From a virus, in the IMG/VR virus record IMGVR_UViG_3300044699_000093, positions 1 to 37,213 of that record: 37,213 nucleotides of DNA; one strand, given 5' to 3'. The position numbers and the translations under genes are program-made. Positions 24,764 through 37,213 of this stretch are shown here, in pieces (position 1 is the first letter of the stretch; every line of letters starts with the position of its first letter). The notes beneath the pieces were generated by a model. That model had not been told where the DNA came from, did no database searches, and saw only the letters and a program-made list of their open reading frames with translations.

Positions 24764-25135
24764 ATGCCATCACGTCTTGCTGTTATCTCGTTTCTCGACG
24801 AACCCGGTTCGCCGAACTACCCGTCGCAGGGGCCAGGGTTCCCATCGCAGGGTCTCCCGGGCATTCCGCCGTATCCGTCGCAGGGCTTGCCAGGGTTCCC
24901 AGGCTTGCCGAACCAGGGTCTGCCGGGTGGGCCGGTGCATCTGCCGGTCTATCCGTTCGATCCCACGCGTCCCGACAACTCACTGCCAGGAACACCGGGT
25001 AGTCCCTCGCAGGGACCGGGCTTCCCGACGCAGCCCATCGCTCCAGGCGGGCGCTTCATCGTGAAGTGGCTGGCCTGTGTCGGTCTCATCCTCGTGCCCG
25101 ACAACTCGCTGCCGCCCACAGCCGAACCGCGGTAA
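24764..25135 (+). CDS. Pro/Gly-repeat protein with PDNSLP motifs
   Basis: 123 aa from ATG 24764 with AAGGAG 10 nt upstream. After MPSRLAVISFLDEPG there are about eight short repeats: NYPSQGPGFPSQGLPGIP, PYPSQGLPGFPGLPNQGLPG and TPGSPSQGPGFPTQPIAPG. Then a folded end, GGRFIVKWLACVGLILVPDN. PDNSLP appears twice. The layout (x-D-N-S/T-L-P repeats around a 'fivkW..g.GlilVp' strand) is one I have seen in uncharacterised phage and bacterial proteins. It lies just before the large terminase and has no membrane segment; it could be a virion decoration or flexible spacer. Unproven. Confidence 0.6.
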   Translation: MPSRLAVISFLDEPGSPNYPSQGPGFPSQGLPGIPPYPSQGLPGFPGLPNQGLPGGPVHLPVYPFDPTRPDNSLPGTPGSPSQGPGFPTQPIAPGGRFIVKWLACVGLILVPDNSLPPTAEPR

Positions 25136-25145
25136 CGGTGCGCGG

Positions 25146-26563
25146 ATGCTCTCCCTCGATGTCCCACGTGCGGTGACCATGCAGTGGCGCGGCCTCCAGG
25201 CTGACGCCATGCAGGACACGACACGTGAACTGGACATCGAGGGCGCACTGCGTGCGTCGAAGACGACCATCTGCCTCTGGAAAGAACTGAACGCGTGCCT
25301 CGCGAACCCGGGCATCCACGGCATGCTCTGCCGCTGGTCCGACGATGCCACGCACGGCATCCTGAAGCCCGTGTGGCGGGCGATCTGCCGTCAGGCGGGC
25401 GTGCGCCTCACGTGGCACGGTGACGAGCAATACGACGAACTGGACAACGGCAGCTGGATGTATATCCGCGGCCTGCGCAGCCAGGACCAAACGACGCGCT
25501 ACTCGAAATTCCGCGGGTTGACGCTGGCCCGCGCCTACATCGATCAGGCCGAAGAAGTCCCGCGGGATGTGTATCTGGAACTCGCGGCGCGGCTCTCGCA
25601 GTCTGGACATCCGCATCAGATTGTGATCAGCCCCAACGCGGTGGAAGAGACGCATTGGATCGCGCAGGAATTCCCGGCCGACAATTCGAACCCGCACCGC
25701 AAATACATTTCGCTCTCGGTCTACGCGAACGAACACAACTGCCGCCTGAAGTCATCCCCAACCTGTGTCGGCTCTTCCCGGTAGGCCACCCGAAGCACCG
25801 CACGATGGTTGAAGGGAAGCGCGGTCTCAACGTCGTCGGCGATCCGGTCTACGCGGGCGCGTTCGTGCGTGCGCTCCACGTGCGACCGTGCGACTACAAC
25901 AAACAGCTGCCGCTCGATGAAGCGATTGATTTCGGGAAGCACCATCCGTGCATCGTCTGGCGGCAGCAGACCGCACTGGGCCAGACGCTCTATCTCGGCG
26001 GCATTCTTGGCCAGGGCATGTATCTGGAAGATTTCCTGCCCATCGTCAAGCAGCACCGCCAGCGCTGGTTTCCGGACCCGGTCGAGATTCGCACGTGCTG
26101 CGATCCGGCCGGGGCCAGCGATAACTCGCACGGTGTCCGTGACAACGGCGTGAAGGTGCTGAAAGACCACGGCTTCGCTCCCAGGTGGACACCGAACGCG
26201 AACGCGCCTGATGTGCGTCTCGCGATGGTCGAGCGCACCGCGGGCCTCATGCGCCGACGCACACCCAGCGGTGAAGCGCTCGGCGTGGACAATTCGCGCT
26301 GGCTGCGCGTGTCGAACAATGCGGTGGTCGAAGACAACTTCCTCGCGGACGGCTTCGAAGCGGGCTACGTCTGGGATGAACACATGGTCTCGGTCGGCTC
26401 GAAACAAATTCGCAAGCCGAAGAAGGATGGCTGGTTCGAACACGCGCAGAACTGCGCCGAGTATCTGGAACTGACCTTCGGCCATCAACCCGACAAGAAG
26501 AAAGCGCCCGCGCCGCCACCGCCGCCTCCGGTGCCGATTGGGCCGAATGCGTGGATGTCGTGA
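25146..26563 (+). CDS. terL: Terminase large subunit (one frameshift near 25740)
   Basis: Start ATG 25146 (MLSLDVPRAVTMQWRGLQAD); poor ribosome site, but nothing better. The Walker A-like motif is IEGALRASKTT (residues about 32-41), Walker B is ARAYIDQAEEV, and motif III is HQIVISPNAV. At about 25740 one base appears lost: reading resumes as LPPEVIPNLCRLFPVGHPKH. The nuclease half carries EIRTCCDPAGASDNSHGV (first catalytic Asp) and GLNVVGDPVYAGAFVRAL. The Pro-rich end is APAPPPPPPVPIGPNAW. About 472 codons, normal for TerL. Shares a GTGA overlap with the next gene. The single indel is more likely error than inactivation. Confidence 0.8.
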
Positions 26564-28094: not shown

Positions 28095-30860
28095 ATGTCT
28101 ATGGGCGCACCGCCTGCCGACATCAGCATCGCGCAATCGATCAACGGGGCCACGCGTCAACCACGTGACCCAGCCGACCTCGATGAAGAACGCTTGCGGC
28201 TCGTGCAGGAAGGCGTCCGCAAGGGTCTCTCCCTGGACGAGGCGATCAAAGCTGCGGACGCGGCGCTCCGGCCGCTGCTCGACCGGCGCACGATGCAACC
28301 GCTGCCGCCGACGTTGCCCCAGGCTCCACTCGACCGCATCCTGGCTCCAGAGCCGACGCATACGCCCGAAGGTGCCGTCGTGCCGGAGGCGCAGGCGCAG
28401 AACCTCGTGCGCGGTTACGTGCGCGAAGGGCCGGTGCTGGCGGCGAAGAGCCTGGGCAACCTCATCACAGGCGAAGGAGGCCGCGCTAAGGCCATCACAA
28501 ACCTGAGTCGTGCCGCGGGGACGACGGCGCTCCCGTTCGCGCCCTACGCGGCTCCGGCGATGGCGGCGCAGGTTGCGGCGAATCCCATCGGCACGCTCTC
28601 CACGCTTGGCACGGCGGCGCTGGCCACGACGGTGGCTCCACACATCGCAGCGCAGCAGGGCGCAAGCCCAGAGACCGCAGAGGCCATCGGGGAAGTCGTC
28701 GGCAATCTCGATCCAGGGATGGCGGAGGGCATGGGTAAGCTCGGCATGGCGGGCATGCTCGGCGCGTCTTCGATGCGCGACATCTTCGGCAAAGCCGTGA
28801 CCGGCGATGCGAAACGCTGGATCCAGCATCTGGCTGCGCCGGAGGCGACCGCGCTCAAGCTCTCGCCTGCGCTCACGGAAGAATTCATGCGCGTGCGCAG
28901 CCAGCTGCCGAAGGTGGATCTGGTTGTCGGCGCGATCATGGGCGGGCGCGACAAACGCGGCTGGTATGAACACTCGCGGCAGGCGATCCAGCAAGTCTTC
29001 GGCACCGACGCGGATCTGTTCGCGGGCCTCCTGGCGGCAACGTCGCCGCAAAACAGTGTCGAGATGAACCTCCAGAACGCGACGAACATCTACGCGAACT
29101 GGGCGAAGGCCGGTCGGCCGCAGGACCGCGACACGATCATCAAGATCATGGAACAGAGTGTCGTCGGCGCTCGTGGACCGGACAGTGTGCTGGACGCCTG
29201 GAAGAACAACACCGTGCGGGCACTCACAGGTGAGTCCACGATCAGCGGCCCGAAGGTGGATAGCTTCTGGACAAACCTGCGTCAACGCGGACGCGTCACG
29301 CCGCACGGCACCGTTGCGCCCGATGAAGCCGTCACGCTCGATGCCTGGATGGCCAACGTGTTTGGCGTCGATAACCAGCTGTTCCGCGGCAAGAAGCCCA
29401 CCGCGAAAGAACTGGCCACCGGCAACCCGGGCTACAGCGGCGGGTATCTGGCGGGCACGTCGCTGATGCGCGAGGCCGCAACCAAGCTCGGCGTCGAACC
29501 GGCCGAAGCGCAAGAGATGGCGTGGTCATTCGGCAAGGTGCTTTACGAGATGTCGGAGGCGACCGGGCGCTCGGCGCGTGAACTCGTGGCGTCGGGTGCG
29601 ATCACGCCGCAGGCGATCAGCGGCACGCCGGATTTCAACACGCTCCTGCAACATCCGCAGCATGCAGGCGCACTTCAGAACGTGCCAGGACTCGCGTCAC
29701 GCATCTCGGCGCTCAAAGCGCAGAGCGGGAAGGCGCTGCCGCCACCCAACGCGCAGCAGCAGGAGTGGATGCTCCAGGCCGCGGACAAACTCGATGAACT
29801 GCGCAGCGTGCGCAAGACCGCCAGCGACTATCGCACTGCGCAATCGCCGGAAGGCACAGCGAGTGTGTCGTTTCCGCTGGAGGCCGCGCCTGGACAGCAG
29901 TCGAAAGTGGATCCCGGCTTCGCGCAGCTGACGCCAGGACAACAGGATCGCCTGTCGTCAGAACGGCTCGGTATGATCGAAGACTTGCGTGGGCGCAACG
30001 TGTTCGCAGAGGCGATGCGGCCAGGACAAACCGCGCCCACGCGCCGCGGGCGTGGCTACTGGCCCAACAGCGAGACCGGCCAGATCGAGTCGAATGTTCT
30101 CAGCACCACGCCGATGTCGCTGCGCACGCTCCAGAAGGGCGGGCTGCATCCACGTGACACCGCCGCGGCGGATTTCGTTGCGAACTTGCAGGCCACCGCG
30201 CTCGGCCAGGACATGCCCAGCTGGTCGGCGATCAAATTCCACGCGGGCGACGGGGCGCAGTCGGATGCGGTGCGCGTCGTGATGGCGAACAAGCTCACCG
30301 ACGATCAGTTCAAGCAGTTTGCGCAGGCGCTGCCCGAAGGCACGTATCCGATCCATAAGACGGACGGCCTCGACATCGTGAAGTGGGACGGCACGAAGCT
30401 GTCTGAGGCCGAACAGCAAGCGATTGGCGACCGTGTGAAGGCGCTGCTCCCGCCGATGAAGAAGTCAGAGGCGCGGAAATTCCGCGTGGCTCCAGGCGAC
30501 GTGGTGGGCAGCGGTGGCGGTGAGAATTTGCCGTGGGGTGCGGAAGGGGCGCGGTCGATGACGACCATGCTGGCGAAGGGCTACGAGAACCTGACGAACG
30601 CGGAACGTGCCCGCATGAATGCGCCCGCGGTCAAGACGGTCTTCTCCAGGCTAGCGTCGTCGTTCGAAAAAAACCCCAATGCGCGACAGGATCATCTGAA
30701 CCTGCTACGCATCGGGGCCAAAGAGGGCATCGCCGGAATTGTTAAGGCTCTCGGCGATTCGTCCCAGCTACTGCCGGTCCTGGCGGCGCTGGGCGTCGGC
30801 GCATCGCTGGCGGGTGCCATTGGGAAGCGTGGAGTCGCCCCCGAACGGGGCGGCTCGTAA
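28095..30860 (+). CDS. 921-aa phage protein with a helical HhH-GPD-like central domain (DUF7178-type)
   Basis: An intact long ORF. The N-terminus (MSMGAPPADISIAQSINGAT) is followed by DEERLRLVQEGVRKGLSLDE and an Ala/Gly-rich hydrophobic stretch, about residues 135-240 (ALPFAPYAAPAMAAQVAANP). The central domain, about residues 280-500, has GWYEHSRQAIQQVFG, DADLFAGLLAATSPQNSVEM, ISGPKVDSFWTNLRQRG and AVTLDAWMANVFGVDNQLF. I recall similar phage domains listed as DUF7178. The layout resembles HhH-GPD DNA glycosylases (see findings). The C-terminal third is mixed, with SRISALKAQSGKALPPPNAQ, TDGLDIVKWDGTKLSEAEQQ and a hydrophobic end (LLPVLAALGVGASLAGAIG). It lies between terminase and portal, so it may be a virion or ejected protein. 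No good ribosome site at 28095. Confidence 0.7.
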   Translation: MSMGAPPADISIAQSINGATRQPRDPADLDEERLRLVQEGVRKGLSLDEAIKAADAALRPLLDRRTMQPLPPTLPQAPLDRILAPEPTHTPEGAVVPEAQAQNLVRGYVREGPVLAAKSLGNLITGEGGRAKAITNLSRAAGTTALPFAPYAAPAMAAQVAANPIGTLSTLGTAALATTVAPHIAAQQGASPETAEAIGEVVGNLDPGMAEGMGKLGMAGMLGASSMRDIFGKAVTGDAKRWIQHLAAPEATALKLSPALTEEFMRVRSQLPKVDLVVGAIMGGRDKRGWYEHSRQAIQQVFGTDADLFAGLLAATSPQNSVEMNLQNATNIYANWAKAGRPQDRDTIIKIMEQSVVGARGPDSVLDAWKNNTVRALTGESTISGPKVDSFWTNLRQRGRVTPHGTVAPDEAVTLDAWMANVFGVDNQLFRGKKPTAKELATGNPGYSGGYLAGTSLMREAATKLGVEPAEAQEMAWSFGKVLYEMSEATGRSARELVASGAITPQAISGTPDFNTLLQHPQHAGALQNVPGLASRISALKAQSGKALPPPNAQQQEWMLQAADKLDELRSVRKTASDYRTAQSPEGTASVSFPLEAAPGQQSKVDPGFAQLTPGQQDRLSSERLGMIEDLRGRNVFAEAMRPGQTAPTRRGRGYWPNSETGQIESNVLSTTPMSLRTLQKGGLHPRDTAAADFVANLQATALGQDMPSWSAIKFHAGDGAQSDAVRVVMANKLTDDQFKQFAQALPEGTYPIHKTDGLDIVKWDGTKLSEAEQQAIGDRVKALLPPMKKSEARKFRVAPGDVVGSGGGENLPWGAEGARSMTTMLAKGYENLTNAERARMNAPAVKTVFSRLASSFEKNPNARQDHLNLLRIGAKEGIAGIVKALGDSSQLLPVLAALGVGASLAGAIGKRGVAPERGGS

Positions 30861-35834: not shown

Positions 35835-37213
35835 ATGGCAGACGAGGCTCCGGCTGGCGTCACTGATCTTCACAGTCAGGCCGTCGCACGCTTCCACTTC
35901 ATCGCCGAGACCGACTCCCAACAACGCACCAGTGAAATCGAGGCGCTGAACTTCGAAGCGGGCGACCAGTGGCCCGAAGACGCGAAGATCAGCCGCCAGG
36001 GCACGCCTGCGAACGCGGCGCTCGGCACACCGGCCGTGCCGCCGCGGCCGATGCTCACCATGCGCACGCTGGATCAGCCGCTGGCGCAGATTTCGAGCAT
36101 GGCGCGGGCCGCAGACCTCGGCATCAAGATCGTGCCGAAGGACGGGGACGCGAACGAGAAGACCGCGGAGGTGATCGCAGGCCTCTGCCGCGCCATCGAG
36201 GCCGATAGTCACGCCGAAGAGGCCTACTACTGGGGCTTCCAGCGGATGCGGGCCTGCGGTCGTGGCTATTGGCGCGTCAACAAAACCTACGCGAACGATG
36301 ACAGCGGCTTCGATCAGGTGCTGCGCATCGAGCCGATTGAAAACGGCGCGTCGGTCTATCTCGATCCGATGCCGTTCTGGCATGCGGCGGGCGGCTTCTG
36401 GGAACCCGATTTCGCGTTCATCACCGAAGACGTAGCGGAAGACGACTACAAGCGGCGCTTCGGCCGGTCGAAGCTGGCGAACGCGAGTGCGGGCGAACTG
36501 CTCACCGCGGTCGGCGACATGAAGCAGGACTGGGTGGTCGAGGGCGAGGCCGGTCGCTACTTCCGCATCGCCGAATACTTCTACGCCACCTACGACGAAC
36601 GCACCGAGACCGACAAAGAAACCGGCACGACCCGCGAAATTCGCACGCGCAAAATCATGTGGGCGAAGATGAACGGCGTTGAATTCCTCGAAGAGCCGCA
36701 GGAATGGGACGGGCAGTTCATTCCGGTGATCGAGTGCGTCGGCAATCGGTTCAACATCGCGGGCAAGCGCATCGCCGAAGGCATGGTGCAGCCGAACATC
36801 TCCGCGTGCCGCATGTTGAACTACATGGTCTCAGCTGCGGCCGAAAAGATCGGTCTCGGATCGCTGGCTCCCTGGATCGGCATCGCCGGTCAGTTCGAAG
36901 GGTTCGAAAACTGGTGGGACCAAGCGAACACGCGCAACTTTTCGAAGCTGGAATACAACGCGGTCACCGAGAAGACCGGCAACACGGTGCTGCCGCCGCC
37001 GACGCGCAACAACGACGAACCCGCGATCCTCGCCTTCGCGAACATGATCGCGCTCTTCACGAATTTCATCCGCTCAACAACCGGTGTGCCGGATGCGGCC
37101 CTGGGCCACGTCAACCCGAACGATAAGTCCGGAGTCGCCATTCAATCGCTCCAACGCGCCGCGGAGCAGGGCGCTTCGAACTGGCTCGGTTTTCTCGCCC
37201 GGGCGATCCGGCA
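35835..37213 (+). CDS. P22-like portal protein (3' end outside the window)
   Basis: An open frame from ATG 35835 to the last base (459 codons, no stop). HSQAVARFHFIAETDSQQRT, SEIEALNFEAGDQWPEDAKI opens in the way usual for P22-family portals. Further on come RPMLTMRTLDQPLAQISSMA, AYYWGFQRMRACGRGYWRVN, DQVLRIEPIENGASVYLDPM, WVVEGEAGRYFRIAEYFYAT, FIPVIECVGNRFNIAGKRIA and NISACRMLNYMVSAAAEKIG, matching the P22 portal order. A dodecameric ring through which DNA is packaged by terminase and to which gp4/gp10 attach. The remaining roughly 200-300 codons lie to the right. Confidence 0.85.
   Translation, partial: MADEAPAGVTDLHSQAVARFHFIAETDSQQRTSEIEALNFEAGDQWPEDAKISRQGTPANAALGTPAVPPRPMLTMRTLDQPLAQISSMARAADLGIKIVPKDGDANEKTAEVIAGLCRAIEADSHAEEAYYWGFQRMRACGRGYWRVNKTYANDDSGFDQVLRIEPIENGASVYLDPMPFWHAAGGFWEPDFAFITEDVAEDDYKRRFGRSKLANASAGELLTAVGDMKQDWVVEGEAGRYFRIAEYFYATYDERTETDKETGTTREIRTRKIMWAKMNGVEFLEEPQEWDGQFIPVIECVGNRFNIAGKRIAEGMVQPNISACRMLNYMVSAAAEKIGLGSLAPWIGIAGQFEGFENWWDQANTRNFSKLEYNAVTEKTGNTVLPPPTRNNDEPAILAFANMIALFTNFIRSTTGVPDAALGHVNPNDKSGVAIQSLQRAAEQGASNWLGFLARAIR

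Follow-up and report, generated by a model that had tools for sequence, protein, structure and literature searches.

A large phage protein carries a central domain that is probably an HhH-GPD DNA glycosylase/AP-lyase with an OGG-type guanine pocket, embedded in a small putative virion protein of the polyvalent type. The protein (921 aa) is encoded on a stretch of viral DNA of 37,213 nucleotides (IMG/VR record IMGVR_UViG_3300044699_000093), subsequently referred to as the window. The domain belongs to DUF7178, which Pfam annotates as a family of unknown function and which has hundreds of phage members. Our analysis gives this family a testable function, with a substrate class predicted from the pocket residues, and it would extend the set of presumably injected phage proteins by a DNA glycosylase. 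If the domain is active on damaged or modified guanine, base excision could take place at DNA entry, either repairing the incoming genome or attacking the host. This reading draws on family membership, invariant residues, fold similarity, the polyvalent architecture of relatives and the genome-end placement of standalone members, all of which were computed here.

The 921-aa protein and its genomic context

The coordinates of all features are collected in Table 1. The motif strings quoted in a first-pass annotation of the window were all found in the translation of the 921-aa ORF. Its third codon positions are GC-rich (GC3 of 0.79), like those of the other likely genes of the window, and the protein has one hydrophobic stretch (residues 892–910). 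As that annotation had stated, the gene lies between the terminase and the P22-type portal genes; it is thus encoded with packaging or virion genes, as polyvalent proteins are. The window also harbors an integrase and ERF/YqaJ recombination genes (Pfam and PHROG matches), a gene content that suggests a temperate phage bearing a P22-type portal. The terminase large subunit is split into two overlapping frames (25077–25784 and 25655–26563) by a frameshift that breaks the gene near 25.75 kb, and a sequencing error, decay or a programmed shift are alternative causes.

Table 1. Features of the 921-aa protein and of its neighbouring genes (positions refer to the window)
Feature	Position	Strand	Evidence or remark
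921-aa ORF, polyvalent-type phage protein	28095..30860	+	ORF list, translation
DUF7178 / OGG-like HhH-GPD domain, residues ~257–486	28863..29552	+	PF23802, phrog_3842, leave-out HMM, AF2
S317-P318, end of first core helix	29043..29048	+	S317 invariant, P318 in 101/106
K387, invariant	29253..29255	+	106/106; equivalent of catalytic Lys (EndoIII K120, hOGG1 K249)
F391, invariant K+4 residue	29265..29267	+	106/106; position of hOGG1 Cys253 (AGOG: Phe)
D416, invariant	29340..29342	+	106/106; equivalent of catalytic Asp (EndoIII D138, hOGG1 D268)
W418 at D+2	29346..29348	+	family W 56 / H 50; as hOGG1 His270 / CacOGG1 Trp243
Q473-x3-W477, invariant pair	29511..29525	+	106/106 each; cf. hOGG1 Gln315/Phe319, OGG2 Asp194/Trp198, AGOG Asp218/Trp222
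Companion region, residues ~594–797, C-terminal to DUF7178	29874..30485	+	companion HMM; common to giant polyvalent proteins
Terminase large subunit (context)	25077..26563	+	two overlapping frames; PF04466, phrog_979
P22-like portal protein (context)	35835..37211	+	PF16510 E 2.6e-70; phrog_156; extends past window end

The central domain is a member of DUF7178

The whole protein matched DUF7178 (PF23802) with an E-value of 1.5e-6 and 28.7 bits, which exceeds the curated cut-off of 27, and the domain alone reached 32.8 bits. The domain also matched phrog_3842 (E 2.7e-9), and an HMM built from 13 phage relatives with the window left out scored 42 bits on the window protein. The scores of these three profiles rule out chance as an explanation of the match. 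Close relatives of the domain or of the whole protein were not found by direct search in viral contigs, genomes and plasmids. Direct tblastn searches gave only weak phage matches, and a single-sequence search of the PDB returned only noise (PRELI proteins). Relatives of the domain were gathered through family profiles and pattern alignments. Profile matches to LapB were rejected, as they covered the first helices alone and left the active site outside.

A search from one mycobacteriophage member located standalone members of about 200 aa in 148 phage records, and hundreds of viral contigs carry them as well. Some phage records already label them glycosylase, N-glycosylase or N-glycosylase/DNA lyase. 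We found no description of the OGG pocket of DUF7178 or of its polyvalent form, nor any literature on DUF7178; the genome-end position of standalone members and the clade within giant phage proteins are new findings. In cells, the domain is rare. Scanning 84,980 species genomes by pattern yielded eight loci, and family searches, with the centre genomes counted in, found carriers in 2 of 398 Pseudomonadota and 1 of 198 Actinomycetota. Two phage genes stand out by their annotation. ORF111 of Tunturiibacter phage Tunturi_3 (L158, 11902–12498) is labelled 'portal protein', a label that we rejected; it is a 198-aa standalone DUF7178 gene and probably misannotated, and the gene immediately upstream is annotated as an ATP-dependent DNA ligase. 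In phage BTCU-1 (NC_021533.1), a partial DUF7178 match at 44081–44290 lies beneath a gene annotated as transcriptional repressor.

Fold and relationship to HhH-GPD glycosylases

The AF2 model of the window domain is all-helical (pLDDT 82.9). Its Foldseek matches in the PDB were weak, with probabilities of 0.41 for Mag2, 0.35 for EndoIII-3 and 0.28 for the queuosine hydrolase DUF2419; the next-best match listed beyond DNA glycosylases and DUF2419 had 0.16. A standalone relative (L059) was modelled with a pLDDT of 95.2 and a pTM of 0.89, and the first 11 PDB matches of this model were all 8-oxoG glycosylases (OGG2, AGOG, OGG1). The top seven had a probability of 1.00 and TM-scores of 0.52–0.58, with a best E-value of 0.017 and none reaching 0.001. 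In an hmmsearch of the PDB with the family profile, the 8-oxoG glycosylase/AP lyase entries 9o00 (E 0.0041) and 9o02 (0.0069) ranked best, followed by 3knt and 3fhf.

HMM-HMM comparison was carried out with five HhH-GPD groups from nine genomes, and 36 unrelated phage families served as negatives. Four of the five groups scored 20–24, compared with a maximum of 17.7 and a median of 12.2 for the negatives, and in the alignment that we inspected, the K and D of the family were in register with those of HhH-GPD. For the AlkA-like group (L249), the score failed to exceed those of the negatives, and PF00730 gave no match for the window up to an E-value of 10, nor for 14 family members up to 1.

The homology of the domain to HhH-GPD DNA glycosylases is near certain. 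The first-pass annotation had proposed this fold from motifs, and its proposal is supported by the predicted fold, by HMM-HMM scores above all negatives and by the invariant Lys and Asp. It had made the reading depend on structure prediction, where the closest structures turned out to be HhH-GPD 8-oxoguanine glycosylases for the family model, with the window's own model giving a weaker result. The likeness to endonuclease III that it had drawn holds in part: the order of motifs and the register of K and D agree with it, but the nearest kin are OGG2 and AGOG, the hairpin is shortened and the window copy contains an insertion of 11 residues. The comparisons thus support OGG2/AGOG, rather than endonuclease III, as the closest kin of DUF7178.

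Predicted active site and base pocket

Conservation was assessed in 106 non-redundant homologues that share 16–32% identity with the window domain, and pocket positions were equated with those of OGGs by sequence order and spacing, not by superposition. The catalytic pair of hOGG1 is Lys249 and Asp268, and the position of its Cys253 (Lys+4) is occupied by His in OGG2 and by Phe in AGOG (PMC3397491). The phosphate is contacted by His270 in hOGG1 (Asp268+2) and by Trp243 in CacOGG1, and the base by Gln315 and Phe319 in hOGG1, with Asp194/Trp198 as equivalents in OGG2 and Asp218/Trp222 in AGOG (PMC3397491). All six positions (K, K+4, D, D+2 and the Q/D-x3-F/W pair) are matched in DUF7178 by residue type and spacing. 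The Lys and Asp had earlier been placed at about residues 385 and 415; both residues were correctly picked, with the numbering slightly off (K387 and D416), and their conservation, on which the proposal had been made to hinge, is complete in the homologues.

The distance from K to D is 18 residues in standalone members and 29 in the window copy, owing to the insertion. The corresponding spacing in endonuclease III (K120 to D138) is also 18. AGOG likewise has a long linker between the two residues (Lys140, Asp172). Compared with the canonical L-P-G-V-G-x-K, the hairpin is shortened to L-x-G-x-K in most members and reads G-D-G-P-K in some; the hairpin of AGOG is also non-canonical (PMC3397491). 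Residues 257–490 of the window protein contain no Cys and therefore no 4Fe-4S cluster, which confirms the earlier remark that the usual cysteines are absent.

Catalysis by the domain is likely. A preference for guanine is a reasoned prediction from pocket residues other than the N7-H sensor, which tells 8-oxoG from G and is Gly42 in OGG1, a C-terminal Lys in OGG2 and Gln31 in AGOG. In the proposed mechanism, the target is a modified guanine, either 8-oxoG or a purine related to it, which the domain would flip out of the DNA. F391 and W477 would sandwich the flipped base, Q473 would read it, and its removal by D416 and K387 would leave an abasic site or a nick.

Relatives in giant polyvalent proteins

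One of the 398 Pseudomonadota genomes carries DUF7178 inside a 3,600-aa protein together with InPase, ART-PolyVal and LPD38; this is a prophage protein of a proteobacterial genome (L151, G089:C12:261910-272712). A pattern search seeded from it returned 68 loci, mostly ORFs of 952–4,744 aa, which provided 43 distinct companion sequences. Two more giants combine the domain with ART-PolyVal, RadC and LPD22 in one case and with LPD38 and LPD23 in the other. The predicted viral structures retrieved by Foldseek also included proteins whose names refer to ART-PolyVal and to large polyvalent domains, and among the neighbours of fused copies are genes for tail, fibre and virion structural proteins and for major head proteins. 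One polyvalent-type copy (L188, 8701–10242) is distributed over two ORFs, with the split falling within the DUF7178 domain.

On the window, the companion HMM scored 13.7–14.4 bits, compared with a best score of 3.7 in 200 shuffles and of 4.2 in 138 unrelated ORFs. DUF7178 and this shared companion are the parts recognised in the window protein, which has no named polyvalent domain. In a midpoint-rooted tree, all 23 fused sequences, including that of the window, fell into a clade of 24 (support 0.95), and the nearest neighbour of the window domain was a standalone member (L217) inside this otherwise fused clade (support 0.95). The fusion in the window may have arisen within the polyvalent radiation or independently of it.

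Polyvalent proteins have been described as entering the cell by injection with the DNA (Iyer et al., PMC5512222). Gene position by itself suggests that the window protein is packaged, and it may be injected: it would be co-expressed with the structural genes, incorporated into the virion and brought into the cell along with the DNA.

Standalone copies and possible roles

In 21 of 22 sampled phages, the standalone gene lies within 10% of the record length from an end (binomial p 4e-14 against 20%), and the same test by lineage found it near an end in 13 of 13 lineages (p 8e-10). The sample consisted of linear records hand-picked from the set of 148, with circular and partial records excluded. 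Early genes are often located at genome ends. The best reading is that the OGG-like domain acts at the start of infection, with either the virion or a gene at the genome end as its source.

Among 114 sampled neighbours of standalone copies, we found no recurring base-excision partner (AP endonuclease, ligase or repair polymerase). C-5 cytosine DNA methylases account for four of these neighbours in viral contigs, which may hint at a link to modified DNA. SprT-like protease genes lie near the DUF7178 gene in the unrelated actinophages Herbertwm (L002, 4649–5119) and Cece (L008, 2694–3155).

Two purposes of such an enzyme come into question; we give them equal weight and regard each as tentative. 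The domain may serve base-excision repair of the phage's own DNA, removing on entry guanine that was oxidised in the packaged state. The OGG-like pocket fits this purpose, as would early expression or entry together with the DNA, and many carriers come from environmental samples, where virions are exposed to light and oxidants. However, hosts usually own Fpg/MutM, the repair partners do not recur in the sampled neighbourhoods, and the presence of ART and further conflict domains in fused proteins points to warfare. The domain may equally be a conflict enzyme that excises bases of host DNA, or bases modified by the host, and thereby, soon after the onset of infection, cripples either the host or a defence system. 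Restriction glycosylases act similarly in the opposite direction. The polyvalent context of the injected type (PMC5512222), the genome-end position and the rarity in cellular genomes speak for a conflict role. Against it, direct evidence for a target is lacking, PADLOC gave no match, and pockets of the OGG type exclude undamaged G (PMC3397491).

A bolder proposal, which we rate as rather doubtful, is that DUF7178 forms a fourth, phage-specific class of OGG-type enzymes with an OGG1-like Gln, an OGG2/AGOG-like Trp and an AGOG-like Phe, and that polyvalent proteins injected from the virion have taken it up as a weapon, used early to create abasic sites in the DNA of the host or in marked DNA. 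To our knowledge, a conflict role has not been described for glycosylases of the 8-oxoG type.

The fold could also have been kept for another chemistry, such as hydrolysis of free nucleotides or RNA bases, as in the queuosine hydrolase DUF2419/QNG1, or a transfer reaction resembling thymine hypermodification. Ranked by TM-score, DUF2419 is indeed the best match of the window model (0.44). In the better family model, however, the OGGs come first and DUF2419 falls outside the top 50, and the invariant Lys is a hallmark of AP-lyase glycosylases. Hypermodification was dropped as a role because its partner genes are absent among the 114 neighbours; altogether, another chemistry seems improbable. 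That the fold serves only for structure or DNA binding, without catalysis, would agree with the occurrence of the domain in large virion-type proteins adjoining structural genes, but it is very improbable, since a mere scaffold would not need six pocket positions that admit one or at most two residue types across 106 divergent sequences.

Comparison with known systems

Read as an OGG-like glycosylase domain, DUF7178 can be set beside several known systems. It differs from the glycosylase-fold enzymes of thymine hypermodification in that no 5-hmdU kinase or other partner gene accompanies the standalone copies in the sampled neighbourhoods. The fused forms resemble the phage polyvalent proteins (PMC5512222), which are large, multidomain, equipped with ART, InPase, LPD and RadC domains and predicted to be injected. 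The main text of Iyer et al. 2017 (PMC5512222) names no glycosylase domain, and we found none in polyvalent proteins elsewhere in the literature.

As in endonuclease III and MutY (PF00730), the core helix is followed by the hairpin Lys and then by the helix with the Asp, and K and D are in register in the HMM-HMM alignment, whereas the family lacks the 4Fe-4S cluster, a PF00730 match and a full-length hairpin. OGG1 (hOGG1, CacOGG1) is similar in the positions of Gln315-x3-Phe319 and of His270/Trp243, but DUF7178 has no N-terminal A-domain and carries Trp in place of Phe319. AGOG (Pa-AGOG, 1xqp) has Phe at K+4, the equivalent Trp222, a non-canonical hairpin and a Foldseek probability of 1.00; it differs in being archaeal and in having Asp218 where DUF7178 has Gln. 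OGG2 (MjaOGG2 3fhf/3knt, TmaOGG2 3n0u) has Asp194 at the position of this Gln and His at K+4 instead of Phe, and shares about 10% identity with DUF7178, which is phage-borne and often found within giant proteins. Nevertheless, OGG2 and PDB entry 9o00 come out on top by profile and by fold. They share with DUF7178 the size, the all-helical fold without the OGG1 A-domain, the stacking Trp and, with its standalone members, the spacing of 18 residues between Lys and Asp.
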